DNA from: Vulcanococcus limneticus LL
GTDB taxonomy: Bacteria > Cyanobacteriota > Cyanobacteriia > PCC-6307 > Cyanobiaceae
DNA: 47,430 nt
NCBI RefSeq assembly: GCF_002252705.1
Contig: NZ_NQLA01000024.1
Location: forward strand, 1-47,430
Reading direction: 5' to 3'
The notes beneath the pieces are model-generated. The model was not told the DNA's origin. It saw only the letters and a program-made list of their open reading frames with translations, and did not search any database. Positions 1 to 12,805 of the stretch are shown in pieces. Position numbers and translations under genes: made by a program. Numbering within the stretch: position 1 is the first letter of the stretch; every line of letters begins with the position of its first letter.

Positions 1-82
1 CCTGGAGCGTCTTGCGGCCACTGATCGCCTCCATGGCGACCTTGGCCTTGAACTCGGGGCTATGGGTGCGGCGTTTGCTCAT
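1..82 (-). CDS. IS3-family transposase OrfA, N-terminal fragment cut by the window edge
   Basis: Reading the minus strand from the ATG at 82 gives 27 codons that begin MSKRRTHSPEFKAKVAMEAI and continue off the window. This is the typical start of the helix-turn-helix OrfA protein of IS3-family elements, which binds the element ends and is normally fused to the OrfB integrase by programmed frameshifting. Only the first part of the DNA-binding domain is visible, so the state of the rest of the element is unknown. It points away from the broken glutamine-synthetase-like gene on its right. Confidence 0.85.
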   Translation of the reverse strand, partial: MSKRRTHSPEFKAKVAMEAISGRKTLQ

Positions 83-163
83 GGGTGGGAGCCCCCTCTC
101 AGGGGCGGTGCCCCGCCTCACAGGTTAACGATGGACCCTGTCCAGAAAACCCAGACCACCTCA
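1..163 (-). mobile_element. Terminal part of an IS3-family insertion sequence
   Basis: The stretch contains the start of OrfA (82 to 1) and about 80 bases of upstream sequence typical of an IS end. Read on the minus strand, the presumed tip begins TGAGGTGGTCTGGGTTTTCT at 163, and IS3-family tips normally start with TG. Coding similarity to glutamine synthetase begins immediately beyond it. The exact boundary and any target duplication cannot be confirmed because the other end lies outside the window. Confidence 0.65.
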
Positions 164-173
164 GGCGGCTGCC

Positions 174-1169
174 ATGGGCTTTCGCTTCAACCTCGGGATC
201 GAGACCGAGTTCTTCGTGCTGCGGCGCGATGCCCAGGGGCGGGCGGTGCCGTTGAGTCCACGCGACACGCTGGATAAACCGGCCTACGACGTGCGCACCC
301 TGCTCGACAACCTGCCCTGGCTCGATGAGCTGGTGAGCGCCATGAATCAGCTCGGTTGGGGGGTGTATTCCTTCGACCATGAAGACGGTCCCGGTCAGTT
401 CGAGATCGACTTCGATTATGCCGATGCGCTCACCATGGCCGATCGGTTTACCTTCTTCAGGCTGATGGCCAAGGAGATCGCCCACAAGCATGGGTTGATC
501 GCCAGTTTCATGCCCAAGCCCTTCGCCGATCGCACCGGCAGTGGCGCCCACTTCAACATGTCGCTGGCGGATCTGAGCAGCGGTGCCAATCTGTTTGAAA
601 CCGCTGACAAGGCCCCTGGCCAGGTGAGCGCGCTGGCCCATCAGTTCATCGCCGGGGTACTGCGCCACGCCCCAGCCATCTGTGCGGTGATCGCCCCCAC
701 GGTGAACAGCTACAAGCGGCTGGTGGCCCAGGGCAGCATGTCTGGTTTCACCTGGGCGCCGGTGTTCATCTGCTACGGCAACAACAACCGCACCAACATG
801 CTGCGCATTCCCTCGCCGGGCGGGCGGGTGGAATGCCGGGCTGCCGACATCTCCTGCAACCCCTATCTAGGGGCTGCGATGATTCTGGCCGCAGGGCTGG
901 AAGGCATCCGTGAGCAGCTGGATCCAGGTCCGCCCAACCTGGTGAATGCCTACACGCTCAGCGCTGAGGAGAGGGCGGAACGGGGCCTGCATCGGCTGCC
1001 GCGCACCCTGGGGGAGGCGGTGGAGGCCTTTGCCGCTGATCCGCTGTCGCGAACCGTATTTGGCGATGCCATGTTCGAGGCCTTCGTCGACTACAAGAGG
1101 GGCGAATGGGAGGCCTACCACTCCTCTGTGTCTGATTGGGAACAGGCGCGCTACCTGGAGTTCTTCTAA
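174..1169 (+). pseudogene. GlnT/GmaS-type glutamine-synthetase-like gene, 5'-truncated by an IS element
   Basis: The 331 readable residues start MGFRFNLGIETEFF and match the catalytic barrel of type III glutamine-synthetase-like ligases (GlnT/GmaS), which form gamma-glutamyl amides from glutamate, ATP and ammonia or an amine. They align with the intact paralogue at 8101-9417 from about its residue 112 onward. The N-terminal beta-grasp domain (about 110 residues) is therefore missing. In this superfamily that domain completes the active site of the neighbouring subunit, so the product is probably inactive. Metal and nucleotide motifs remain: the ETEFF segment, HEDGPGQFEIDF, FMPKPF, and GNNNRTNMLRIP. 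Homology begins right after the presumed IS tip at about 163, which points to insertion as the cause. The C terminus is intact, so the damage may be recent. Expression of the remaining domain from the ATG at 174 cannot be excluded. Confidence 0.8.
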
Positions 1170-1197
1170 GCCATTTCCGCCTCCTCCTGCGGCCCCT

Positions 1198-1261
1198 CCT
1201 CTCGCCACTGCCTTCTCTAGACACTGCCTTCTCTCGCCACTGCCTTCTCTCGCCACTGTCT
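1198..1261. repeat. Four tandem copies of a 16-bp unit
   Basis: Units of the form TCTCTCGCCACTGCCT lie at 1198-1213, 1214-1229, 1230-1245 and 1246-1261. The second unit has AGA in place of CGC, and the first and last differ by single bases. They fill most of the 119-base gap between the glutamine-synthetase remnant and the ABC-transporter lipoprotein. The strand read is pyrimidine-rich. No stem-loop is obvious. Confidence 0.85.
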
Positions 1262-1288
1262 GCGCCATTTCCATCGCCAGCTTTTGCC

Positions 1289-2311
1289 ATGTTTGGTCCC
1301 CATCGCTCCAGCCCTGCGCCGGCCCGTCGTAGGCGCCTGAAGGCTCTGGCCCTGATCACCGCCCTCGGGGCCGGGTTGCTCACCGCCTGTCAGAAACCGG
1401 CCACCGAAGGGCCGGCCGTGCGCATTGGTTACAGCGCCTGGCCCGGCTGGTTCCCCTGGGCTGTCACCGAGGCCAAGGGGCTGTTCGGTGCAGCCGGGGT
1501 CAACACCAAGCTTCAGTGGTTTGACGGCTACCTTGACAGCATCAACGCCCTCAATGCCGGCCAGCTGGACTGCAACAGCCAGACCCTCAATGACACCATC
1601 AGTTCGGTGGCTGGTGGCGCCGATCTGCAGGTGGTGCTGCAGAACGACTACTCCACCGGCAACGACCAGATCATCGTGGCCAAGGGCATCAACTCCGTGG
1701 CTGATCTGAAGGGCAAAAAGGTGGCCGCCGAGGAGGGCACGGTGGACCACTACCTGCTGCTGAAGGTGCTCAAGGAGGGCGGACTCCAGGCCAGCGACAT
1801 CACCTTCGTGCCCCTGGAAACCGGCGCCGCCGCCGCTGCCTTCGCCGCGGGCCAGGTGGATGCCGCCGGCGTCTACGCCCCCTTCACCACCCAGGCCCTG
1901 AAGCGTCCCGGCAGCAAGGTCCTGACCAGTTCCCGCGAGCACCCTGGCGCCATCAGCGACCTGCTGGTGTGCCGCCGCGAGTTTGTGGAGAAGAACCCCG
2001 AGGCGATCCAGAACGTGGTGAATGCCTGGTTTGCCACCCTGCAGCTGATGCAGAAGGATCCGGCTGCCACCTTGCCGATCCTGGTGCAGCGCTCGGGTGT
2101 GTCGGAGCAGGAGTTCAAGGCCTACGACGCCGGCACCACGATTCAGACCCTGGAGCAGAACCGCGCCAACTTCAAGCCTGGCACCACCATGACCTCGCTT
2201 CCCTACGCGGCGGAGCAGATCAGCACCTTCCTGGTGGAAGTGGGCCTGGCCAAGAGCAAGCCGGATCTCAGCCAGTTGCTCAACCCCAAGTTTGTGAACA
2301 ACGCCAAATAA
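1289..2311 (+). CDS. ABC transporter substrate-binding lipoprotein, NitT/TauT (SsuA-like) family
   Basis: This 340-residue protein has a basic N terminus (ARRRR), a hydrophobic stretch and a lipobox LLTAC with the lipidated cysteine at residue 34, so it should sit on the outer face of the plasma membrane and deliver ligand to the permease. The mature part begins with VRIGYSAWPGWFPW, the usual first strand of the NMT1/SsuA/TauA/NrtA fold. The ATG at 1289 is chosen because it places a proper signal peptide first; the frame stays open further upstream but would run into the preceding gene. Family members bind nitrate, sulfonates, taurine, thiamine precursors or other small organics, so the ligand cannot be assigned. 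The neighbouring Rieske oxygenase and GlnT-type ligase suggest an organic nitrogen compound. The permease gene starts 18 bases downstream. Confidence 0.9.
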   Translation: MFGPHRSSPAPARRRRLKALALITALGAGLLTACQKPATEGPAVRIGYSAWPGWFPWAVTEAKGLFGAAGVNTKLQWFDGYLDSINALNAGQLDCNSQTLNDTISSVAGGADLQVVLQNDYSTGNDQIIVAKGINSVADLKGKKVAAEEGTVDHYLLLKVLKEGGLQASDITFVPLETGAAAAAFAAGQVDAAGVYAPFTTQALKRPGSKVLTSSREHPGAISDLLVCRREFVEKNPEAIQNVVNAWFATLQLMQKDPAATLPILVQRSGVSEQEFKAYDAGTTIQTLEQNRANFKPGTTMTSLPYAAEQISTFLVEVGLAKSKPDLSQLLNPKFVNNAK

Positions 2312-2329
2312 GTCCTGCAGCCCTTGGCC

Positions 2330-3097
2330 ATGCCTGCGTTCCGTCGTTTGATTCGGCATCCCTGGGCCCTTGGCATCCTGGGAATCGCCTCTGTGCTGCT
2401 GCTGTGGTGGTTGATCACCGCCAGTGGCGCCGTCAACAAGCTCTTCCTGCCCTCGCCGCAAGCGGTATGGCAGGCGGGGCAGCTGCAGTGGAACAGTGGC
2501 CTGCTGCTCAAGGATGCCGTCGCCAGCATCCAGCGGGTCTTCATCGGCTTTGCCCTCTCGGCGGGGCTGGCCCTGCCGGTGGGTATCGCCATGGGTACCA
2601 ACGTGGTGATCTGCCGGCTGCTGGAGCCCCTGATGGGCCTGATCCGCTACATGCCGGCGCCCGCCTTCATCCCGCTGTTGATCATCTATTTCGGGCTGGA
2701 GGAGCTGCCGAAGGTGCTGTTGATCTTCATCGGCACCTTCTTCTTCAATACGCTGATGATCATGGATGCGGTGAAATTCGTTCCCCGCGAGCTGGTGGAA
2801 ACAGCCCTCACCCTGGGAGGCCGGGGCTTGCCGATTCTCACCAGGGTGGTAGCTCCCTTCATCGCCCCCCAGGTGCTGGACACCTACCGGATCAACATGG
2901 CTTCAGCCTGGAATCTGGTGATCGTGGCCGAGCTGGTGGCGGCCACCGAGGGCCTGGGCAAGCGCATCAGCCTGGCCCAGCGCTTTCTGCGCACCGATGA
3001 AATCTTTATGGGTCTGATTGTGATTGGTCTGATCGGCCTGGTGATTGATCTGGGCTTCCGCGCCCTGATGCGCCGTGCCTGCGCCTGGGCCACCTGA
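2330..3097 (+). CDS. ABC transporter permease, SsuC/TauC-type
   Basis: This 255-residue integral membrane protein has about six predicted helices and length typical of the SsuC/TauC/NrtB permease family. A helix near residues 15-32 (ILGIASVLLLWWLI) is followed by the conserved LFLPSPQAVW segment. The cytoplasmic coupling loop is visible as ETALTLGGRGLPILTRVVAP, where the ATPase docks. It forms the channel for the ligand captured by the upstream lipoprotein. The ATG at 2330 is preferred over an in-frame TTG six bases earlier. The ATPase gene follows after 10 bases, so the three transporter genes form one operon. Confidence 0.92.
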   Translation: MPAFRRLIRHPWALGILGIASVLLLWWLITASGAVNKLFLPSPQAVWQAGQLQWNSGLLLKDAVASIQRVFIGFALSAGLALPVGIAMGTNVVICRLLEPLMGLIRYMPAPAFIPLLIIYFGLEELPKVLLIFIGTFFFNTLMIMDAVKFVPRELVETALTLGGRGLPILTRVVAPFIAPQVLDTYRINMASAWNLVIVAELVAATEGLGKRISLAQRFLRTDEIFMGLIVIGLIGLVIDLGFRALMRRACAWAT

Positions 3098-3107
3098 GCA
3101 CACCACC

Positions 3108-3878
3108 ATGCATCTGCAGATTGCCAACCTCTGTAAGAGCTTCGGCTACGGCGCCCAGCGCAAAGAGGTGCTCAGAAACGTGAGCTTCGATGTGAACGCC
3201 GGTGAATTCGTGGCCCTGGTGGGCAGCTCCGGCTCCGGTAAATCCACGGTGATGCGCCTGATTGCCGGCCTCGACTCCCCCAGCTCCGGCGTGGTGAGTC
3301 TCGATGGGCGCCCGGTCACCGGTCCCGGCTCCGATCGGGGCATGGTGTTCCAGAAGTACAGCCTCTACCCCTGGCTCACGGCGGCACAGAACGTGGCCTT
3401 CGGCATGGAACTGCAACGGCGCAGCCGCCAGGAGATTCGCGAGCGCACCGCCTACTTCCTGGAGGTGGTCGGCCTGGCCGATGCGGCCAGACGGCTGCCG
3501 CGAGAACTCTCCGGCGGCATGCAGCAGCGGGTGGCCATTGCACGGGCCCTGGCCGCCGAGCCGAAGTTACTGCTGCTGGATGAACCCTTCGGCGCCCTCG
3601 ACATCCAGATCCGCGAGTCGATGCAGGAGTTTCTGTACAACCTGTGGCAGCGCACCGGCCTGACGGCGCTGCTGATCACCCACGACCTGGAGGAGGCCCT
3701 GCTGCTAGCGGGCCAGGTGCACATCATGGCCCCCTCGCCGGGGCGGATCGTGCGCAGCGTGGCCGTCGATCTCGACCGCTCCGCCATGGGCCAGCTGCGG
3801 CTCTCCCGCCCCTTCCTCGACCTGCGCGAGGAGTTGGCGCAGTGCCTGCGCGGCCTGGAGCCGGCCCTGCCCACCTGA
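3108..3878 (+). CDS. ABC transporter ATP-binding protein, SsuB/TauB-type
   Basis: This 256-residue nucleotide-binding subunit powers the importer. Visible motifs are Walker A GSSGSGKST (39-47), Q-loop FQKYSLYPW (81-89), signature LSGGM (134-138), Walker B LLLLDEP (154-160) and the switch histidine in LITHD (His192). The aromatic Q-loop and the DRGMVFQ segment are typical of nitrate/sulfonate/taurine importers. No C-terminal regulatory domain is present, unlike NrtC, which argues against a classical nitrate transporter. The ATG at 3108 follows the permease stop by 10 bases. The Rieske gene begins 24 bases after the stop, consistent with co-transcription. Confidence 0.93.
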   Translation: MHLQIANLCKSFGYGAQRKEVLRNVSFDVNAGEFVALVGSSGSGKSTVMRLIAGLDSPSSGVVSLDGRPVTGPGSDRGMVFQKYSLYPWLTAAQNVAFGMELQRRSRQEIRERTAYFLEVVGLADAARRLPRELSGGMQQRVAIARALAAEPKLLLLDEPFGALDIQIRESMQEFLYNLWQRTGLTALLITHDLEEALLLAGQVHIMAPSPGRIVRSVAVDLDRSAMGQLRLSRPFLDLREELAQCLRGLEPALPT

Positions 3879-3902
3879 TCCCCGTCACCTGCGAGGCCCC
3901 CG

Positions 3903-5003
3903 TTGGCGCTGCCCCCTGCCCGCTTTCTGCCCGGATGGGTCTATGGCTCTGCGGCCGTGGCCCAGCGGGAGCGCAGCCACTACGCCGGCCGCTGCTGGCA
4001 CCCGGTGGCCGCCAGCGCGGAGCTTGGCAGTGGTGAGGCCCTTGCCCGCGAGCTGCTGGAGCTGCCGCTGCTGATCACCCGCCCGGCCGAAGGCGCGTTG
4101 CCCCAACAGCCCCGGGCCTTTCTCAACCGCTGCCCACACCGGGGCGTGGCCCTGCTGGAGGGCGGCGGCCCTGCCCAGCCCTGCCGCCGGCTGATCTGCC
4201 CATACCACGGCTGGACCTACGACCTGCAGGGTCAGCTACGGGCGGCGGCCCGGGAGGGGGAGTTCCTCGAGCCCTTCTGCCGCGACGACTGGCCCCTGAT
4301 GGAGCTGCCCTGCCGGCAGCTGGGTCCGCTGATCTGGGTGGCCCTCGGGCCCGAGCCGCTGCCCCTGGAGCAGCAGCTGGATCTGGTGCTGGCGGAGGCC
4401 GGCGCGCTCTTTGACCAACCCCGACAGCTCCTGGCGCGGCAACAGCAGTCCCTGGCCTGCAACTGGAAGGTGGCCCACGACAACACCCTCGACGACTACC
4501 ACGTGGCAATCGCCCACCCGAGCACCCTGCACAGGGAGCAGGGCCCGGTGCGCCACTACCGCCATGGCCTGAGCCACCACGGCACCCTGCTGGCCACTCC
4601 CTGGGGCGAGGGCGGCACCTTCTTCACCTTCGGCCTGGCCCCCTGGACCCACCTGCTGCTCTGGCCCGATGGCCGTCTGGCCCTGATCAGCTTCCTGCCG
4701 GAGGCCTCCGGCCTGGATAGCTGCCGCATGGAGGTGTGGCTGCTGGGCCTGGAGCAGCACGCCGGCGGCGCTGAGGCCTGGATGGCCGAACTGCAGTGCT
4801 TCCTGGAGGAAGATCGGCGCCTGGTGGAATCGGCCCAACGGGGCTACGCCAGCGGGCTGCAGCCAGGGCCTGCCCACCGCCTGGAGCAGCGCATCCTCCA
4901 GTGGCAGGCCCTCTATGCCAGCTGGATGGAGCTCGACGACCTGGCCCCGGAGGCCCTCACCACGGCACCTGGCGCCGCAGCCACGCCGCCATGGCGGCAT
5001 TGA
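3903..5003 (+). CDS. Rieske non-heme iron oxygenase, catalytic (alpha) subunit-like
   Basis: This 366-residue enzyme has a Rieske [2Fe-2S] site, Cys77-x-His79 (CPHRG) and Cys99-x2-His102 (CPYHGW). The mononuclear iron site shows bridging Asp197, His200 and His205 (DDYHVAIAH), with Asp304 in LEEDRRLVES as likely carboxylate ligand. Such enzymes hydroxylate or N/O-demethylate small molecules using electrons from a separate reductase. No reductase or ferredoxin gene is adjacent, so a cellular ferredoxin may serve. Known relatives with this single-subunit layout include glycine betaine, choline, carnitine and stachydrine oxygenases, but the substrate cannot be read here. The start is probably TTG at 3903, preceded by GAGG at a six-base spacing. 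The gene directly follows the importer genes, suggesting that it acts on the imported compound. Its 3' end overlaps the convergent isomerase gene by 47 bases. Confidence 0.88.
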   Translation: MALPPARFLPGWVYGSAAVAQRERSHYAGRCWHPVAASAELGSGEALARELLELPLLITRPAEGALPQQPRAFLNRCPHRGVALLEGGGPAQPCRRLICPYHGWTYDLQGQLRAAAREGEFLEPFCRDDWPLMELPCRQLGPLIWVALGPEPLPLEQQLDLVLAEAGALFDQPRQLLARQQQSLACNWKVAHDNTLDDYHVAIAHPSTLHREQGPVRHYRHGLSHHGTLLATPWGEGGTFFTFGLAPWTHLLLWPDGRLALISFLPEASGLDSCRMEVWLLGLEQHAGGAEAWMAELQCFLEEDRRLVESAQRGYASGLQPGPAHRLEQRILQWQALYASWMELDDLAPEALTTAPGAAATPPWRH

Positions 5004-5805
5004 TCTCCAGCAGATCGGCCACGGGCTGGCGGGTGAAGGGCAGCAGCGGCAGGTAGCCGTCGGGGCCGAATTCCGGGGTGATGGTGAACGGCCCCTCGCT
5101 GGCGGCCGAGCGCTCCCGGGCGAACAGCTGCCAGCAGCGCCGGTGGGCGGTCAACGCCTCGGCCGACTCGGGCGCGAAGGGATGGCCCACCGACGGGCCC
5201 TGGGCATGGCCCACCCGGGCATGGATGTGGTCCACCCGCGAGGCGATCGCCCGCACCGGCTCCAGCTCGGGGGTCATCAGCCGTTCCGCCACCGCGCACC
5301 AGTGGCTGAGATCGGCAGTGAGCCGAAGCTGCGGGAAGGCCTCCAGGTAGGAGCCGATCAACCAGGGGCTGTAGAAGCTGCGGGAGCGGTGGGTCTCGAA
5401 GCTCACCGGCAGCGGGCAGGTGGCAGCCAGCTCCAGGGCCCGGCTCCAGAAGCGCTCCTGCACCGGCCAGGGCCAGCTGTCGCTGCCGGTGAGAACCGTG
5501 ACCCGCAGCGGCGCCAGGGCCGGCGCCAGCTCCAGCTGCTGCTCCAGCTCCTCCAGGTGCTGGGCCGGGGTGCAGTCCAGCCGGGGTACGTAGTCGCCAC
5601 CGGTGAGCAGCTCCAGCACCAGGGCCTGCCCCGCCGCCGCCAGCTGCTGGGCCACGGCCCCAGGCTCGACGGCCGCCAGGGCGGGGTGGGCCAGATTGGC
5701 CTCCAGGCCGTCAAAACCATGGCCGCGGGCCAAGGTACTGGCGGCGGCCAGGTCGCCAGCAAACCCCCACAGGCTGAACAGCAGCAGGGGGGCGGGGGCA
5801 CCCAC
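4957..5805 (-). CDS. TIM-barrel sugar phosphate isomerase/epimerase family protein
   Basis: This 282-residue protein belongs to the xylose-isomerase-like TIM-barrel superfamily (AP_endonuc_2 type). Visible barrel elements are LLLFSLWGFAGD at the start, GFDGLEANL, SFETHRSR, LTADLSHW and the C-terminal HIHARVGHAQGP motif, whose histidine and acidic residues usually bind a divalent metal. The reaction is unknown; family members isomerise or epimerise sugars and related hydroxy-carbonyl compounds. A GTG at 5805 is taken as start, three bases beyond the upstream 52-residue gene, implying translational coupling. The frame is open further upstream, but that extension is low-complexity and overlaps the small gene. 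It converges on and overlaps the Rieske gene. Confidence 0.8.
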   Translation of the reverse strand: MGAPAPLLLFSLWGFAGDLAAASTLARGHGFDGLEANLAHPALAAVEPGAVAQQLAAAGQALVLELLTGGDYVPRLDCTPAQHLEELEQQLELAPALAPLRVTVLTGSDSWPWPVQERFWSRALELAATCPLPVSFETHRSRSFYSPWLIGSYLEAFPQLRLTADLSHWCAVAERLMTPELEPVRAIASRVDHIHARVGHAQGPSVGHPFAPESAEALTAHRRCWQLFARERSAASEGPFTITPEFGPDGYLPLLPFTRQPVADLLEINAAMAAWLRRQVPW

Positions 5806-5807
5806 CG

Positions 5808-5966
5808 TCAGCGCGCCTGGGTGAATTCCTCGGGCTGGATGCCCAGGTACACCGCCTCCTTGAACAGGGCCTGCTTGGCCTCGGCGTCGTGCTGCTGCTC
5901 GGCCTCCTCGTAGCGACTGCGGAGCGAATCCACCAGCGCCTGCCGGCGGGGATCGGTGGTGGCCAT
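5808..5966 (-). CDS. Conserved-looking 52-residue hypothetical protein
   Basis: A short protein starts MATTDPRRQALVDSLRSRYE and ends PEEFTQAR. It is strongly charged and predicted mostly helical (ALVDSLRSRYEEAEQQHDAE), with no membrane segment. It ends two bases before the proposed GTG start of the isomerase, so the two are likely co-translated. Its codon usage and composition look like real coding sequence, unlike the proline/arginine-rich read-through upstream of its ATG. I do not recognise a function. Its position suggests a small partner or regulator of the isomerase. Confidence 0.65.
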   Translation of the reverse strand: MATTDPRRQALVDSLRSRYEEAEQQHDAEAKQALFKEAVYLGIQPEEFTQAR

Positions 5967-6106
5967 CAACAGCTGCAGGGGTTTGATCCCGCAATCTAGG
6001 CAGCCCCACCGCAACGCCCGCCACAGCGGGGGGGGGGCGGGGCGAGGGGGGCGATGGCGGCAACGGTGCGATTGCCTACCGAAGCCGAGGCCCATCCGCT
6101 GGTGAA
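5967..6106. other. Divergent intergenic region with a 10-G run
   Basis: These 140 bases separate the leftward isomerase pair from the rightward desaturase operon and must hold both promoters. A run of ten G lies at 6028-6037 inside a longer G-rich stretch. I see no clear -10 box or NtcA-type GTA-N8-TAC site by eye. Confidence 0.5.
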
Positions 6107-7057
6107 GTGGCCCAGTGCTGCCCACCGTCCTTGACTGCGCCTGTCGCTGCCAGCTCTGCCCTGATTCCCCGTCAGGCGCTGGCCGACCTCAACCAGCTGC
6201 GTAACGGTCCGGCCTTCCTGCGCCTGCTCAGCCAGCTGGTCACCATCGTCGCCGGCGGGCTGGTGTGGGCCCAGTTCAGCTGGCCACTGGCCCTGCGGCT
6301 GGCCGGCCTGCTGCTGTGCGGGGTGGGCCTGGCCACCTGCTTTGCCGGGCTGCACGAGTGCAGCCACCGCACCGCCTTCAAGAGCCGCTGGGCCAACGAT
6401 GCGGCGGCCTGGCTGCTGGGTCTGTTGAGCTTCTACAACGCCACCGCCTACCGCCGCTATCACCAGTGGCACCACCGCTACACCCACCTGCCGGGGCTGG
6501 ATCCCGAGCTGGACGATCCCCTGCCCACCACCGCGCTTGGCTACCTGCTGGAGCTGAGCGGCTGGAACTGGTGGACCGGCAAGCTGCGGGGTACCGCCCA
6601 GCTGCTCTGGGGTGACCTCTCGGCGGTGCCCTACCTCAACGCCGAGCTGATCCCCAAGGTGCGCCGCTCGATCTGGCTGCAGTGCAGCGTGTATGGGGCG
6701 CTGGCGGCGCTGTCGCTGATCGAGGCCAATGGCTTTCTGCTCTGGTACTGGCTGCTGCCCCTGGCGCTGGGCCAGCCCTTCCTGCGCTTCGTGCTACTGG
6801 CGGAGCACACCGGTTGCAGCTTCAGCAGCGATGGCACCGCCAACACCCGTACCACCCTCACCACCGCTCCGGTGCGCTGGCTGATGTGGAACATGCCCTT
6901 CCACGCCGAACACCACCTCTACGCCTCGATTCCCTTCCACGCCCTGCCGGCGGCCCACGCGCACATCGCCCCCCACCTTCAGCACCTCGACCACGGCTAC
7001 CTGCAGGTGCATCGCCAGCTGCGGGCCCAGCTGCCGGCCCTGGGCCTGCCGGCATGA
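6107..7057 (+). CDS. Membrane fatty-acid-desaturase/hydroxylase superfamily protein
   Basis: This protein of about 316 residues carries the three histidine clusters of membrane di-iron desaturases and hydroxylases: HECSH, HQWHH and HAEHH near the C terminus. Several hydrophobic helices lie between them (for example LALRLAGLLLCGVGLATCF and LLWYWLLPLALG). Such enzymes use di-iron, O2 and ferredoxin to desaturate or hydroxylate lipids, carotenoids, alkanes or small polar molecules. It is clearly different from the two delta-9 desaturases at the other end of the window, whose boxes are HRLLSH-, HRHHH- and HNTHH/HNNHH-like. The start is uncertain: GTG at 6107 is the first option, and a TTG lies at about 6131. 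Its stop overlaps the start of the next gene (ATGA), so it is coupled to the alpha/beta hydrolase. That context suggests a role in the local pathway rather than bulk lipid metabolism. Confidence 0.85.
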   Translation: MAQCCPPSLTAPVAASSALIPRQALADLNQLRNGPAFLRLLSQLVTIVAGGLVWAQFSWPLALRLAGLLLCGVGLATCFAGLHECSHRTAFKSRWANDAAAWLLGLLSFYNATAYRRYHQWHHRYTHLPGLDPELDDPLPTTALGYLLELSGWNWWTGKLRGTAQLLWGDLSAVPYLNAELIPKVRRSIWLQCSVYGALAALSLIEANGFLLWYWLLPLALGQPFLRFVLLAEHTGCSFSSDGTANTRTTLTTAPVRWLMWNMPFHAEHHLYASIPFHALPAAHAHIAPHLQHLDHGYLQVHRQLRAQLPALGLPA

Positions 7058-8055
7058 GTTCCCTCACCGTCCCGCTCAGCCGCGCCCAGCGGCAGGAGCA
7101 CGCCCTGGGCCCCTGGCCCCTGGCCTGCGGCCACACCATCCCGGACGCCCAGATCACCTACCTGCAGATCGGCGCCCTGAACGCCGATCGCTCCAACCTG
7201 ATCCTGGTGCCCACCTCCTACGGCGCCCGGCCGGAGGATCTGGCCTGGCTGGCGGGGCCGGTGCTCGATCCGGAGCGCTGGTGCATCGTGATCGCCGGCA
7301 TGTTCGGCAACGGAGCCTCCAGCAGCCCCAGCCACGGAGCCATGGGTCTGGCAGAGCAGGGCTGGGTCGTCAGTCATCACGACAACGTGGCCGCCCAGCG
7401 GCAGCTGCTGGCGGAGGCGTTCGGCGTGGAACGGCTCCCCCTGGTCTACGGCTGGTCGATGGGGGCCCAGCAGGCCTACCAGTGGGCCGTGGCGTATCCC
7501 GAGCAGGTGGAGCGGATCTGCTGCGTGTGCGGCAGTGCCCGCACCTCCCCCCATAACCGCCTCTTCTGCCTCAGCCTGCGCCAGGCCCTCACGGCCGATC
7601 GCCACTGGAATGGCGAGGGATTCGATGCCACCCCCGACCAGGGATTGCGCACCTATGCCCTGATCTACGCCAGCTGGGCCGCCAGTCAGCCCTTTTTCCG
7701 CACCGTCGCCGAGCCGATGGAGGAGCACGTGGAGCGCCAGTGGCTGCCCCACTACCAGCGCCACGATCCCCGCGATCTGATCGCCATGCTCGACACCTGG
7801 CTGGCCCACGATGTGGCCGCTGGCGGCGATCTGGCCGAAGCCCTGGGTCGCATCCAGGCGCGCACCGCCGTGGTGGCCGGCAGCCACGACCTCTATTTCA
7901 CGGTCGACGATCTGGCCGCCGATGCCGCCGCCATCCCCGGGGCCCAGCTGCACGTGATCGAATCGATTCTGGGCCACCGCGCCGGCAATCCCCACAGCAG
8001 TCCGCCGGAACAGTCGCAGCTGCGCCAGGTCGTGGATCAGCTCCTCGCCGGCTGA
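7054..8055 (+). CDS. Alpha/beta hydrolase, homoserine O-acetyltransferase (MetX)-like
   Basis: This 333-residue protein matches the MetX-type alpha/beta-hydrolase family: LILVPTSYGARPEDL near the oxyanion region, the nucleophile elbow GWSMGAQQ with Ser135, an acid in AGSHDLYF, and a C-terminal catalytic His in LGHRAG. True homoserine acetyltransferases usually show GGSMGG at the elbow, so a different acyl or amide substrate is plausible. Family members without MetX function include hydrolases of small amides and esters. Its ATG overlaps the desaturase stop by four bases, and the GlnT/GmaS-type ligase follows 45 bases later. Hydrolysis of an amide or ester intermediate in this pathway is a reasonable but unproven guess. 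Confidence 0.85.
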   Translation: MSSLTVPLSRAQRQEHALGPWPLACGHTIPDAQITYLQIGALNADRSNLILVPTSYGARPEDLAWLAGPVLDPERWCIVIAGMFGNGASSSPSHGAMGLAEQGWVVSHHDNVAAQRQLLAEAFGVERLPLVYGWSMGAQQAYQWAVAYPEQVERICCVCGSARTSPHNRLFCLSLRQALTADRHWNGEGFDATPDQGLRTYALIYASWAASQPFFRTVAEPMEEHVERQWLPHYQRHDPRDLIAMLDTWLAHDVAAGGDLAEALGRIQARTAVVAGSHDLYFTVDDLAADAAAIPGAQLHVIESILGHRAGNPHSSPPEQSQLRQVVDQLLAG

Positions 8056-8100
8056 CGGCAGCGGCCCCTTGTTGTTTCCCATCTTCTTTGCAGAGAGCCC

Positions 8101-9417
8101 ATGGCTGATCTCGCTGGCCTGATGAAAGAGCGGGGCCTCCGCTTTCTGTTGATGTCCTTCACCGACCTGTTCGGGGTGCAGCGGGCCAAGCTCGTGCCGG
8201 CCTCAGCGGTGGAGGGGATGGCCACCGCGGGTGCCGGGTTTGCGGGGTTCGCCGCCTGGCTTGACCTCTCCCCGGCCGATGGCGACGTGATGGCGGTGCC
8301 CGATCCCGCCAGCCTGATGCCGCTGCCCTGGCAGCCCGAGGTGGGCTGGGTGGCCACGGAGCTGCTGCTGAATGGGGAGCCGATGGCCCAGTGCCCCCGG
8401 CGCTTGCTGCGCCGTCAGCAGGAGCGGGCCCAGGCCCTGGGGTTCGAGCTGCGCAGTGGTGTGGAGGCCGAGTTCTTTCTGCTGGATTCCAGCGGCGAGG
8501 CGCCCGCGGATCGCGCCGATACCCAGCAGAAACCCTGCTACGACCAGCTCGCCCTGATGCGTCACTACCCGCTGGTGGCGCCACTGCTGGAGGCGATGGA
8601 GGCGTTGGGCTGGGGGCCGTACCAGGCGGATCACGAAGATGCCAACGGTCAGTTTGAAATCAACTGGACCTTCGCCGATGCCCTCACCACCGCCGATCGT
8701 CACGCCTTCTTCAAGGTGATGGTGAAATCGCTGGCGGAGGAGCAGGGGCTGCGCGCCAGCTTCATGCCCAAGCCCTTCGCCCATCGCACCGGCAATGGCT
8801 GCCACACCCACCTGTCGCTCTGGGGCGCCGCCGGCACGGCGCAGGCAGGTCGCAATCTCTTCCACGATCCAGGCGGCGCGTTGGGATTGTCGGCGCTGGC
8901 CTATCACTTCCTGGCTGGACTACTCGCCCATGCCCCAGCCCTCTGCTGCCTGACGAATCCCAGCGTGAACAGCTACCGGCGACTGGCGGCGCCCCCCACC
9001 ACCTCCGGCTCCACCTGGGCGCCGGGAGGGATCAGCTACAGCGGCAACAACCGCACCCACATGGTGCGCATTCCGGATGACCAACGACTCGAACTGCGCC
9101 TCCCCGATGGTGCCGCCCACCCCTATCTGCTCCAGGCCGCCGTGCTGGCCGCGGGCCTCGATGGGATCGAGCGCCAGCTCTCACCCGGGCCGCGCCACGA
9201 CAATGACAACTTTGCTGAGCCCCTGAAGTCTCCAGGGTTCGGCCATCTACCCAGCGATCTAGGTGAAGCCCTGGAGGCCTTTGGCCAGGATGCCGTGCTG
9301 CGATCCGCCCTCGGCGATGCGTTCTGCAGCGCCTACGAACGCCTGCGTCGTCGTCAGTGGCAGGAGTATCGCGCCGAGGTGACGGATTGGGAGCGTCACA
9401 CAGGGCTGGATGGTTGA
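8101..9417 (+). CDS. glnT: Type III glutamine-synthetase-like ligase (GlnT/GmaS family)
   Basis: This 438-residue, apparently complete enzyme belongs to the GlnT/gamma-glutamylmethylamide synthetase branch of the glutamine synthetase superfamily. The N-terminal beta-grasp domain holds the family segment FTDLFGVQRAKLVP (20-33) and GAGFAGFAAWLDL. The catalytic domain shows VEAEFF (121-126), HEDANGQFEINW (178-189), FMPKPF (221-226), GNGCHTHLS (231-239) and GNNRTHMVRIPD, which carry metal, ATP and glutamate ligands. These enzymes condense glutamate with ammonia or a short amine at the cost of ATP. It is much shorter than GlnN-type GSIII and lacks the adenylylation loop expected in a cyanobacterial GlnA. 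It is the intact paralogue of the IS-truncated gene at the left edge and the last gene of the desaturase operon. Whether the acceptor is ammonia or an alkylamine cannot be decided from sequence. Confidence 0.9.
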   Translation: MADLAGLMKERGLRFLLMSFTDLFGVQRAKLVPASAVEGMATAGAGFAGFAAWLDLSPADGDVMAVPDPASLMPLPWQPEVGWVATELLLNGEPMAQCPRRLLRRQQERAQALGFELRSGVEAEFFLLDSSGEAPADRADTQQKPCYDQLALMRHYPLVAPLLEAMEALGWGPYQADHEDANGQFEINWTFADALTTADRHAFFKVMVKSLAEEQGLRASFMPKPFAHRTGNGCHTHLSLWGAAGTAQAGRNLFHDPGGALGLSALAYHFLAGLLAHAPALCCLTNPSVNSYRRLAAPPTTSGSTWAPGGISYSGNNRTHMVRIPDDQRLELRLPDGAAHPYLLQAAVLAAGLDGIERQLSPGPRHDNDNFAEPLKSPGFGHLPSDLGEALEAFGQDAVLRSALGDAFCSAYERLRRRQWQEYRAEVTDWERHTGLDG

Positions 9418-11696: not shown

Positions 11697-12155
11697 ATGA
11701 GTAGCCCATCCCCTGACCCAGCCGCCCTGCAGGCCACCCTGTTCGACTTCGCGATCGGCGAGCTGGTGCGCCAGCACCGCGAGAGTTTTCAGCCGCTCTG
11801 GAGCGCCGAGGCCTGGGCCAAGCTGCTGATCTGGCTCTCGCTCAACTGCGGCTGCAGCGGCGATCGGCAGGGCCTGGAGGCCTTCGCGGCCGCCCTCGGC
11901 CCAGTGCTGACCGGGCGGATGCGGCGGATCTACTTCGAGCGGGTGCTCGACGACCTGGACCTGCAGCTGCTGGCCGATCCGGCCGAGCAACAGGTGCTGG
12001 CGCTACCCCTGGGGCCCTCCGGCGCACCGCCGCTGGAGGCCGTGGCGGCGGCCCTGGAGCGGGTGGGGCTGGCCGGTCACGTGGTTGCGGACCGCAGCCG
12101 CTGGCAGGGCCTGGAGTCGGTGGTGGCCGTGCCCTGGAGCCAGCCATGCGCCTGA
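11697..12155 (+). CDS. Hypothetical protein (152 residues) coupled to a 2OG-Fe(II) oxygenase
   Basis: The protein starts MSSPSPDPAALQATLFDFAI and has a helical N-terminal half (LVRQHRESFQPLWSAEAWAK, SLNCGCSGD) followed by a mixed C-terminal part ending VVAVPWSQPCA. No catalytic motif is evident. Its last 10 bases overlap the first bases of the following oxygenase gene, implying translational coupling and a shared role. I do not recognise the family. The ATG at 11697 avoids overlap with the divergent small acidic gene. Confidence 0.7.
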   Translation: MSSPSPDPAALQATLFDFAIGELVRQHRESFQPLWSAEAWAKLLIWLSLNCGCSGDRQGLEAFAAALGPVLTGRMRRIYFERVLDDLDLQLLADPAEQQVLALPLGPSGAPPLEAVAAALERVGLAGHVVADRSRWQGLESVVAVPWSQPCA

Positions 12156-12805
12156 TCGCCAGCTATCGCAACGCCGGCTATGAGGCCCTGGCCGATGGGG
12201 TGATGGCCTTCTTCGATCGCCGCCCGGATCTGCAACGCCCGGGCGTGGCCTTCGGGCCCGACGCTGGCGCTGGGGGCGAATCCGCGGCCGAGCCCGCCAA
12301 GATCTCCACCGACATCAGCCTGGTGGCGATCGACCGCTCCGATCCGGAGGCCTTCGCCCTGGCCGAAGTGATCGTGCGCGGCGTGAGCGCCGGCCTGAAC
12401 CGCTACCTGCAGGAGCGGCCGCTGCTGCGCCAGTGCTGCCCGGAGCAGGGCCTGTTCGTGAACCCGATCTTCAATCTGCAGCGCTACGCGCCCGGCGAGG
12501 GCTTCCGCAGCTGGCACTGCGACTGGAACACCACGGTCGAGGCCACCGAGCCGATCCGCCGCGTGCTGGCCTGGATCCTCTACGCCAACACCCTGCCCGA
12601 GGGCGGCACCGAGTTCCACTGGCAGGAACACCACGAAGAGGCGGAGCGGGGCAAGCTGCTGATCTTCCCGGCGGGGCTCTCCCACATCCACCGGGGCCGG
12701 GTGAGCCACAGCCACAGCAAGACGATCGCCACCGGCTGGATCAACGCCGGCAGCCTGGAGGCCTACCTGGGCCGCCTGGCCGCAGAGCCAGTGGATGCTC
12801 CTTGA
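12146..12805 (+). CDS. 2-oxoglutarate/Fe(II)-dependent oxygenase, prolyl-4-hydroxylase-like
   Basis: This 219-residue protein carries the double-stranded beta-helix signature: His124-x-Asp126 (WHCDWN) as iron ligands, a distal His (His182 in HIHRG) and a basic residue for 2-oxoglutarate (Lys192 in SKTIATGW). The order NLQRYAPGEGFRSWH...LYANTLPEGGTEF...GKLLIFPAGLSH is that of prolyl-4-hydroxylase-like enzymes. It should hydroxylate a protein side chain or small molecule using O2 and 2-oxoglutarate. The preceding 152-residue protein is translationally coupled and may be its partner or target. Substrate unknown. Confidence 0.87.
   Translation: MRLIASYRNAGYEALADGVMAFFDRRPDLQRPGVAFGPDAGAGGESAAEPAKISTDISLVAIDRSDPEAFALAEVIVRGVSAGLNRYLQERPLLRQCCPEQGLFVNPIFNLQRYAPGEGFRSWHCDWNTTVEATEPIRRVLAWILYANTLPEGGTEFHWQEHHEEAERGKLLIFPAGLSHIHRGRVSHSHSKTIATGWINAGSLEAYLGRLAAEPVDAP

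Follow-up and report, generated by a model that had tools for sequence, protein, structure and literature searches.

The 8-kb stretch described here lies near the start of the window (the whole 47,430-nucleotide sequence of Vulcanococcus limneticus LL that was analysed) and consists of two modules: module A, part of a guanidine operon, and module B, composed of a desaturase gene, a hydrolase gene and the ligase gene glnT2. With slightly less than even confidence, they are regarded as two nitrogen-scavenging modules side by side, the guanidine operon and a putative amine pathway under NtcA-type control. The operon anatomy, its split, the riboswitch, the GmaS-type active sites, the co-inheritance and the promoter pattern presented below were all obtained by computation. 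The genes named in the original prediction were all recovered where it had placed them, by Pfam and NCBIfam profiles or, for the TIM barrel, by predicted structure (Table 1). Its proposal of one undescribed pathway is not supported, since importer and Rieske oxygenase are encoded in a guanidine-hydrolase operon in which both have already been reported (available part of PMC10119275) and module B is separate; the organic-nitrogen function that it assigned is supported.

Table 1. Features at positions 1-9417 of the window.
Feature	Position	Strand	Basis
IS3-type insertion element, end portion	1..163	-	sequence reading
glnT1 3' part, GmaS-like ligase gene, interrupted	164..1169	+	PF00120, 323 bits
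Importer substrate-binding protein (SBP), SsuA family	1289..2311	+	TIGR01728, 238 bits (cut-off 163.5)
ABC permease	2324..3097	+	PF00528
ABC ATPase	3108..3878	+	PF00005
Stand-alone Rieske oxygenase	3903..5003	+	PF00355 and PF00848
Xylose-isomerase-like TIM barrel	4957..~5841	-	Foldseek, predicted model, relatives' loci
Small ORF, ~52 aa, upstream of TIM-barrel gene	5808..5966	-	92% identical ORF in locus L031
Degenerate NtcA-type promoter, GT-N9-TAC-N23-TGAAGT	6066..6108	+	spacing common with relatives
Membrane di-iron desaturase/hydroxylase, module B gene 1	6131..7057 (alternative start 6107)	+	PF00487, 123 bits
PRK07581 alpha/beta hydrolase (MetX-like), module B gene 2	7054..8055	+	PRK07581, 350 bits (cut-off 332)
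GlnT2, GmaS-type gamma-glutamyl-amide ligase, module B gene 3	8101..9417	+	TIGR03105, 609 bits (cut-off 470)

A guanidine operon split by an insertion element

Module A, which in the window comprises the importer and Rieske genes together with the TIM-barrel gene on the other strand, is the downstream portion of the known cyanobacterial guanidine-hydrolase operon. Another contig of the same genome (C71) carries the riboswitch, gdmH, ghaA, ghaB and the glnT1 segment missing at the 5' end; on it gdmH is followed by ghaA and ghaB, and the Guanidine-I riboswitch scores 90 bits in Rfam. Among the 17 module-A loci, seven were tested, and this riboswitch exceeded the gathering score in six, with none in L032. 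The strain's own GdmH aligns without gaps to Synechocystis GdmH (7ESR/7OI1; 765 bits) and, provided that the chain numbers run two ahead of the protein, keeps Thr97 and Trp305 (Synechocystis numbering), which the accessible text of PMC11410670 gives as guanidinase residues. The relatives' ghaA and ghaB proteins match HypA at 81 bits, below the cut-off of 88, and HypB at 284 bits (cut-off 121), and the strain's own genome also holds a urease alpha match. The importer lies inside the gdmH operon in relatives, with the SBP gene coming after ghaB or glnT1, while in the window strain the insertion element parts it from gdmH.

The guanidine operon is split by this element within glnT1. The window begins inside the element, which we take to be of the IS3 type from its motifs; an orfA-like start runs leftward from about position 82, and the terminus CCACCTCA is present at 156-163. 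The opposite terminus, TGAGGTGG, and an orfB-like frame were found on contig C71, and GGC at 164-166 recurs at the other junction as a 3-bp duplication. Codons ~1-119 of glnT1 sit at the end of that contig (L075), beside the other end of such an element. A broken GlnT/GmaS-type gene upstream had been predicted, and glnT1 is indeed truncated in this way; its fragment in the window scores 452 bits against TIGR03105 (cut-off 470).

The Rieske gene follows that of the ATPase and is present in 13 of the 17 importer-bearing loci and in 14 of the 18 gdmH loci that extend far enough. As far as the text of PMC10119275 is available, it describes a Rieske gene (CK_00002251) at the same operon position and in most Synechococcus and Cyanobium carrying the guanidine cluster. 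As the importer and the Rieske gene are members of the guanidine-hydrolase operon, the imported substrate is likely to be guanidine or a close relative. A role of the Rieske protein as a betaine, choline or carnitine demethylase was set aside, because its likeness to the GbcA profile is remote (62 bits, cut-off 670) and its gene is located in guanidine operons. No Rieske match was found in the plasmid search at 1e-15.

In the accessible part of PMC10119275, Synechocystis PCC 6803 (sll1077 region) and the marine Synechococcus cluster Syn-eCAG_001 have gdmH, ghaA/ghaB, an importer and the riboswitch. The window strain has in common with this published operon gdmH, the hypA/hypB-like ghaA/ghaB, a TauABC-like importer and the Guanidine-I (ykkC) riboswitch, whereas its operon is split over two contigs and carries glnT1 between ghaB and the SBP gene. 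The same text, so far as available, makes no mention of glnT1, the TIM-barrel gene or module B. The TIM-barrel protein has no match in Pfam or NCBIfam; its predicted model is good (mean pLDDT 85.9), with sugar-epimerase and xylose-isomerase-like barrels as the top Foldseek matches, and the 3' end of its gene overlaps the Rieske gene on the opposite strand. As well, the small ORF upstream of it resembles, by eye, cluster c27 of five other loci.

Module B, a co-inherited three-gene set

Module B is a separate, widespread and co-inherited set of three genes that is less known than module A. Within the window's family, 39 of 40 fetched loci have the desaturase, hydrolase and glnT2 genes adjacent and in the same direction, a regularity beyond chance. 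The hydrolase ATG overlaps the desaturase stop codon. Conserved co-occurrence of these genes had been named earlier as a check, and they are co-inherited: GlnT2 and the hydrolase occur in an identical 20 of 386 cyanobacterial genomes, all of which carry the desaturase, at limits (E <= 1e-150 for GlnT2, E <= 1e-75 for the hydrolase) that were picked after the tables had been viewed. Looser limits gave 24 genomes for GlnT and 21 for the hydrolase with an overlap of 21, the extra GlnT genomes being G047 (glnT1 only), G155, G210 and G429 and the extra hydrolase genome G429. In five genomes (G186, G317, G449, G161 and G311) GlnT2 is unlinked, yet the co-inheritance holds. The desaturase is found without the other two genes in 12 of 32 genomes with a desaturase match, one of which (G047) is truncated where its contig stops, and alone in 23 of the best 80 of 369 loci in the contig scan, all 80 cyanobacterial; this family therefore has other uses too. 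On plasmids, desaturase homologues were found in a few alphaproteobacteria and Cupriavidus, and in a Paroceanicella plasmid the genes for a hydrolase and a desaturase are paired next to that for an iron alcohol dehydrogenase. Urease genes adjoin module B in one locus.

The His boxes of the desaturase are invariant, and TTG at 6131 is its likelier start since the alternative GTG overlaps the promoter. The best Foldseek match of its model is chain M of the chloroplast Ycf2-FtsHi complex (E 3e-5), followed by AlkB and SCD1 (E 0.025 to 0.6), while the best curated match is weak, namely the arginine hydroxylase GntB of toxin biosynthesis (42 bits, cut-off 380). The hydrolase carries a GWSMG nucleophile motif and passes the cut-off of PRK07581, an entry titled 'hypothetical protein'; against the MetX equivalog TIGR01392 it stays below the threshold (106 bits, cut-off 500).

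GlnT2 scores 562 bits (7CQL) and 383 bits against GmaS structures versus at most 231 against glutamine synthetases, and is 59.9% identical to RhGmaS. Ten of the ten listed active-site residues are retained in all 40 sequences (window and 39 relatives); Lys30, Tyr147, Gln175, Asp177, Glu179, Glu186 and Asn188 of the amine pocket, as listed in the available part of PMC7948447, are likewise present in 40/40, and so is Arg312 together with Asp177 and Glu186. Ala stands at the position of glutamine synthetase Asp50' (40/40) and Trp at that of the flap Glu, so that the ammonia-binding Asp and Glu are missing. GlnT1 has Asp177, Glu186, Arg312 and Trp300 in 14/14 sequences and Thr (Thr48) at the Asp50' position in 12/14, the other two having no coverage there, and it departs from the GmaS amine pocket by Gln175 to Ser and Asn188 to Asp in 14/14. 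That the GlnT proteins might be ordinary type III glutamine synthetases capturing ammonia released nearby would agree with their automatic name ('type III glutamate--ammonia ligase') and with the ammonia freed by guanidine hydrolysis, but Ala or Thr at Asp50', Trp at the flap Glu and the higher scores of GlnT2 against GmaS structures make this very improbable, and the plain ammonia-type enzyme was set aside on the active-site residues. The earlier assignment of the ligases to the GmaS rather than the ammonia type is supported.

NtcA-type promoters and the link between the modules

The NtcA regulon criterion used here is a GTA-N8-TAC site about 22 bases ahead of a -10 box. The site in the window keeps the NtcA-type spacing but has GTG for GTA and TGAAGT for TANNNT, and the strict promoter pattern has no match there. 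Upstream of the desaturase, the GTN9TAC spacing occurs in 19 of 41 family loci, with the element missing in 22, and the classical GTAN8TAC in one of 41. GTN9TAC with a -10 box is present in 19/19 aligned family loci against 0-3 at other spacings, but these sequences were chosen by a pattern already containing TACC and CTGnTG, so that only two features count as independent evidence, the constant distance of GT and the final T of the -10 box. Among the matches listed, GTAN8TAC was found in 16 of 57 hydrolase-bearing loci versus 0-3 at eight other spacers, and was not enriched in desaturase-alone loci (3/23 versus 0-6). These patterns suggest NtcA-type promoters ahead of module B in part of the lineages, including the window in degenerate form, to which NtcA would bind.

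The conserved element upstream of the desaturase was also considered as a leader RNA hairpin, which was rejected since an NtcA-type promoter explains it better. In Rfam this candidate matched nothing but eukaryotic families, all below threshold. Covariation was mixed: the covariation score and the percentage paired were attained in 22 and 14 of 500 shuffles, respectively, as against 358 and 248 for the pair-count measures. A known riboswitch ahead of module B was rejected as well: Rfam found no riboswitch or other match in seven loci with module B only.

Module B might instead be biosynthetic, with a gamma-glutamyl-protected amine being desaturated or hydroxylated and released as a small signalling or protective molecule in a nitrogen-controlled manner. 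Gamma-glutamyl protection is known in biosynthesis, and GntB is the best, though weak, curated match of the desaturase. The NtcA-type promoters, the importer or (in one locus) urease neighbours and the GmaS active sites suit assimilation better, and a biosynthetic role is considered improbable.

A single pathway spanning the whole 8 kb was rejected, because 23 of 40 module-B loci yielded no orthologous importer in the stretch that was fetched; it is present in the other 17, and in L033 and L043 the guanidine-operon ATPase gene is immediately succeeded by module B. Across genomes, gdmH occurs in 13 of 20 with module B versus 45 of 366 others, and has no match in the remaining seven, which together with the 23 loci indicates that the link between the modules is optional. 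In addition, of the genomes examined, 20 of 25 that carry module B have glnT1 within the gdmH operon, versus 0 of 10 that lack module B. As related genomes are not independent, the glnT1 count was also made by genus (any member counts), giving 11/13 versus 0/5. The glnT1 sample covered 25 of 41 genomes with desaturase and gdmH and 10 of 15 with gdmH alone, leaving out L040 and L094, whose contigs end inside the operon; the counts of gdmH and glnT1 with and without module B were tallied by hand from listings. The two modules may also be unrelated neighbours with only general nitrogen scavenging in common, glnT1 having another purpose in the guanidine operon. The 23/40 loci with B but not A, the 7/20 genomes without a gdmH match and a riboswitch seen at module A only are consistent with this, but the uneven distribution of gdmH and the 20/25 versus 0/10 occurrence of glnT1 in the operon argue against it, and it is weighed as possible but rather doubtful.

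A candidate amine route and its relation to known systems

In the favoured reading, module A would take up guanidine, and perhaps N-alkyl guanidines, and hydrolyse guanidine to ammonia and urea. In module B, GlnT2 would use ATP to couple glutamate with a small primary amine, of which methylamine is the likeliest; the membrane di-iron enzyme would hydroxylate the N-alkyl carbon of the resulting gamma-glutamyl amide, and the PRK07581 hydrolase might help resolve the hydroxylated product to glutamine and an aldehyde, so that nitrogen would enter as glutamine straight away, bypassing the N-methylglutamate route. A gamma-glutamyl amide formed by the glnT1 product from the guanidine branch may feed the same di-iron oxygenase. 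Which amine is used, how and in what order the oxygenase and the hydrolase act, and this feeding role of glnT1 are what we infer. The more specific version, a cyanobacterial methylamine route of its own (GmaS, di-iron methyl hydroxylation, MetX-like formaldehyde release with glutamine left) plus a GmaS-like link for N-substituted guanidines in the window's family, is put forward as a possibility on the doubtful side. Synechocystis consumes theanine according to the accessible part of PMC12588301, and other routes for gamma-glutamyl amides may therefore exist.

The oxygenase might also act before the ligase, with the di-iron or Rieske enzyme N-demethylating or cleaving a nitrogen compound that bears methyl groups (dimethylamine, trimethylamine, methylguanidine or a betaine), GmaS capturing the amine, and the gamma-glutamyl amide being stored or cut by another enzyme. 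Rieske and di-iron oxygenases include known demethylases, and a Ruegeria desaturase homologue adjoins a ferredoxin gene, with Rieske and sarcosine-oxidase delta genes within 7 kb. A methylguanidine hydroxylase has likewise been reported within a guanidine-riboswitch operon of Vreelandella (PMC12508155, as far as available). This order is judged unlikely, given that no genome of the strict phylum set has GlnT2 without the hydrolase or the reverse, a pattern in keeping with a hydrolase that works on what the ligase makes, and that 23/40 loci lack the importer, and hence module A, in the fetched stretch.

The proposed ligase-first route has its first enzyme, GmaS, in common with indirect methylamine oxidation, which has N-methylglutamate synthase and dehydrogenase, whereas module B has a di-iron oxygenase and an alpha/beta hydrolase and no SoxD was found. 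SoxD, a marker of N-methylglutamate dehydrogenase, was not found in the strain's own and 12 same-genus genomes, several of them incomplete, nor in 11 other module-B genomes (10 in a second search plus G317 in the first); the first search found it in 3 of 20 genomes, 14 control genomes were silent in both, and the second search alone is not proof of absence. The predicted mismatch with the methylamine GMA synthase/dehydrogenase system is supported in the genomes searched. Gamma-glutamylation routes are known for isopropylamine (IpuC), putrescine (PuuABCD) and aniline (TdnQ). Like the module B model, these use a glutamine synthetase-like ligase to mark the amine before oxidation and glutamyl removal, but their oxidising and hydrolysing enzymes are others, while module B would give glutamine itself. 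Glutamylation of 1-naphthylamine is described in the available part of PMC11335346. Methylguanidine demethylation by MgdH/MgdL likewise places an oxygenase in a guanidine operon, but in the text available (PMC12508155) MgdH belongs to the 2-oxoglutarate dioxygenases and is encoded in a guanidine-carboxylase operon, whereas the window has Rieske and di-iron enzymes beside a guanidinase operon.

Dissolved organic nitrogen in natural waters includes methylated amines and guanidines. If the proposed reading is true, a nitrogen-controlled amine set without the N-methylglutamate pathway would be a route for primary producers competing for amine nitrogen, and gmaS in environmental surveys need not indicate methylotrophic heterotrophs. 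Moreover, PRK07581, a family without an assigned function, would gain a testable role.

Gene content and the guanidine operon

Family searches returned the gene set that the original prediction had claimed, namely an SsuA-family substrate-binding protein (SBP), a permease, an ATPase, a Rieske oxygenase, a membrane desaturase, a PRK07581 (MetX-like) hydrolase and GlnT. The TIM-barrel protein had no match in these searches, and its predicted fold is good and resembles a xylose-isomerase-like barrel. The window starts at base 1 of contig C148 in a genome of 3.55 Mb and 160 contigs. The desaturase and hydrolase genes share an ATGA overlap, and the intact ligase gene, glnT2, starts 46 bases past the hydrolase gene. 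As well, a small ORF in the window resembles by eye cluster c27 of five relatives, while a longer ORF spanning it had no match in family searches.

Features of the window with their coordinates
Feature	Coordinates	Strand	Remark
Small ORF, ~52 aa	5808-5966	-	upstream of TIM-barrel gene; 92% identical ORF in relative locus L031
NtcA-type promoter pattern	6066-6108		directly before desaturase
glnT2	8101-9417		intact GmaS-type gene
2OG-Fe(II) oxygenase superfamily protein	12146-12805	+	some kilobases downstream
Second, larger FA_desaturase-family protein, 570 aa	38724-40433	-	additional N-terminal part; adjoins DnaB gene; no tie to the finding seen

Among 40 neighbourhoods with a desaturase orthologue fetched from the window's family, probably Cyanobiaceae, the importer is present in 17, and gdmH and/or ghaA/ghaB are visible in 16 of these (in L031, ghaA and ghaB are visible and gdmH lies at the margin of the fetched sequence; L040, the remaining locus, begins at a contig end within the operon). 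The gdmH gene of the window genome is located on contig C71 (4966 bases), where a Guanidine-I riboswitch, gdmH, ghaA, ghaB and the upstream ligase gene glnT1 to about codon 119 (the match extends a few residues beyond) precede one end of an insertion element. At its start, the window has the other end of an element of this kind and then the remainder of glnT1. The two element ends are inverted repeats (TGAGGTGG/CCACCTCA), GGC is common to both flanks, and the reading frames at the ends resemble the orfB and orfA frames of IS3-type elements. Since glnT1 parts and opposite element ends thus lie on C71 and in the window, the GlnT gene predicted to be broken is, judged from sequence, an insertional mutant of a gene that relatives have intact (452 aa in L031, for example). 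In another locus, L057 (genome G032), only two short glnT1-like pieces precede the SBP gene, and glnT1 looks decayed there, comparable to the interrupted copy in the window strain.

Both residues to which guanidine specificity has been ascribed in Synechocystis are retained in the GdmH of the window genome, which also carries a urease alpha gene. Guanidine-I was above the gathering score in six of seven loci of this guanidine half given to Rfam, with no match in L032, and in none of the seven loci given that carry only the desaturase, hydrolase and glnT2 genes (hereafter module B). Passages of PMC10119275 (ISME J 2023) already describe this cluster, including its TauABC-like importer, Rieske gene and ykkC riboswitch, and passages of a review (PMC12186494) report an ABC transporter that imports guanidine in Synechocystis. 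Because the TIM-barrel gene is divergent and upstream of gdmH in L086, L087 and L090, and not downstream of the Rieske gene, it changes place yet stays with the guanidine operon. Moreover, L077-L085 and L088 are gdmH operons without glnT1 whose more distant SBP (~42-47% identity to the window SBP) perhaps reflects a different importer specificity.

The GmaS-type ligases and module B

GlnT2 scored 562 bits against RhGmaS (7CQL; 59.9% identity) and 383 against MmGMAS (9QUR), whereas no glutamine synthetase gave more than 231, and the ten amine-binding and catalytic positions reported in passages of PMC7948447 are identical to RhGmaS in 40/40 GlnT2 sequences (window and 39 relatives). GmaS-type ligation is well founded. 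GlnT1 (44.0% identity; best match MmGMAS, 396 bits) retains the catalytic residues, and it may take a different amine because 14/14 sequences have Ser in place of Gln175 and Asp in place of Asn188. For SoxD, a subunit of N-methylglutamate dehydrogenase, there was no match in the window genome, in 12 genomes of the same genus (several incomplete, taken irrespective of module B) or in 11 other module-B genomes; the same search found it in three other cyanobacteria, and 14 control genomes gave no match in either search.

In 39 of the 40 family loci the three genes of module B follow one another on the same strand, the stretch of L040 stopping within the hydrolase gene; the L039 hydrolase is broken into two frames, and a single TGA occurs in each desaturase of G062, G069 and G023. 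The co-occurrence of desaturase, MetX-like and GlnT genes, a check proposed with the original prediction, was found in a search of the phylum: GlnT2 (E <= 1e-150) and the hydrolase (E <= 1e-75) occur in the identical 20 of 386 genomes at thresholds picked after the tables were seen, and the desaturase (E <= 1e-25) in those and 12 more, including G047, cut by a contig end (Fisher p ~7e-34 and 2e-25, for related genomes and post hoc thresholds). GlnT2 is distant from the other two in five genomes.

Of 369 named loci in GTDB genomes, the 80 best were compared: the hydrolase adjoins the desaturase in 57 and glnT2 also in 29, several of the other 28 stopping soon past the hydrolase. Examples of the full set come from Gloeobacterales (L128), Snowella (L120) and Pseudanabaena; in Nodosilinea loci the desaturase and hydrolase are seen, and the desaturase is alone in 23, as in most Nostoc-type loci. 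The three-gene set is also carried by a Leptolyngbya plasmid and hydrolase-glnT by a Nostoc plasmid, while glnT2 is next to urease genes in L101. In L106 and L110 (G331, G462), a divergent creatininase-like gene (96 bits against a cut-off of 235, first 150 residues scored) lies beside the desaturase; in metabolism, creatinine is close to methylguanidine and methylamine. PRK07581-like hydrolases were also seen in nitrogen-compound settings on plasmids of Deinococcus, Roseibium and Paroceanicella (L205, L206, L208). These settings comprise pyrimidine-degradation genes plus an importer; a cytosine permease accompanied by a urea transporter and an amidase; and a desaturase together with an iron alcohol dehydrogenase. 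No account of the desaturase-hydrolase-glnT2 set was found in the literature consulted, mostly as titles and abstract starts with passages of some papers.

Putative chemistry and nitrogen control

Most likely, GlnT2 performs GmaS-type ligation as the first step; the di-iron enzyme would then oxidise the N-alkyl carbon, and the hydrolase would resolve the oxidised product to glutamine and an aldehyde. We infer the latter two steps from family chemistry and co-inheritance, because the desaturase has His boxes and a predicted model (pLDDT 75) whose weak Foldseek matches include AlkB and SCD1, and the hydrolase has the Ser-nucleophile motif GWSMG. In Paroceanicella, the iron alcohol dehydrogenase gene adjoins hydrolase and desaturase genes (identity 41% and 36%), which fits an aldehyde product.

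Module B carries signs of nitrogen control. In the 80 best of the 369 named loci, GTAN8TAC lies upstream of the desaturase in 19, versus 1-9 for other spacers from 3 to 14; the 57 with hydrolase hold 16 (versus 0-3), and 25 with the looser GTN10AC and a -10 box (versus 4-14), while the 23 without hydrolase have no GTAN8TAC excess (3 versus 0-6). In the window's family, GT-N9-TAC-N22/23-T[AG]NNNT stands directly before the desaturase in 19 of 41 loci, window included, and is absent there in the other 22; part of this pattern had served to choose the 19. A strict pattern, derived from these loci and missing the window's own site, adds rarity elsewhere: across 121 genomes it matches 14 times, 10 of these matches standing directly before the desaturase, while its reversed control has no match.

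Relation between the two halves

The gdmH gene occurs in 41/47 family genomes with the desaturase versus 15/104 without, and in 13/20 phylum genomes with module B versus 45/366 others. Within the gdmH operon, glnT1 is present in 20 of 25 examined genomes with module B (linked or not) and 0 of 10 without (by genus, 11/13 and 0/5). In addition, L033 and L043 have neither glnT1 nor the Rieske gene, and in both of them module B begins within 0.4 kb past the ATPase gene. This co-occurrence and adjacency suggest that module B may process what GlnT1 makes.

The original prediction is supported in part, though not as a single undescribed pathway: half is the guanidine operon already known from passages of PMC10119275, here interrupted by an insertion element, and the other half is a conserved cyanobacterial GmaS module with signs of nitrogen control and putative chemistry.
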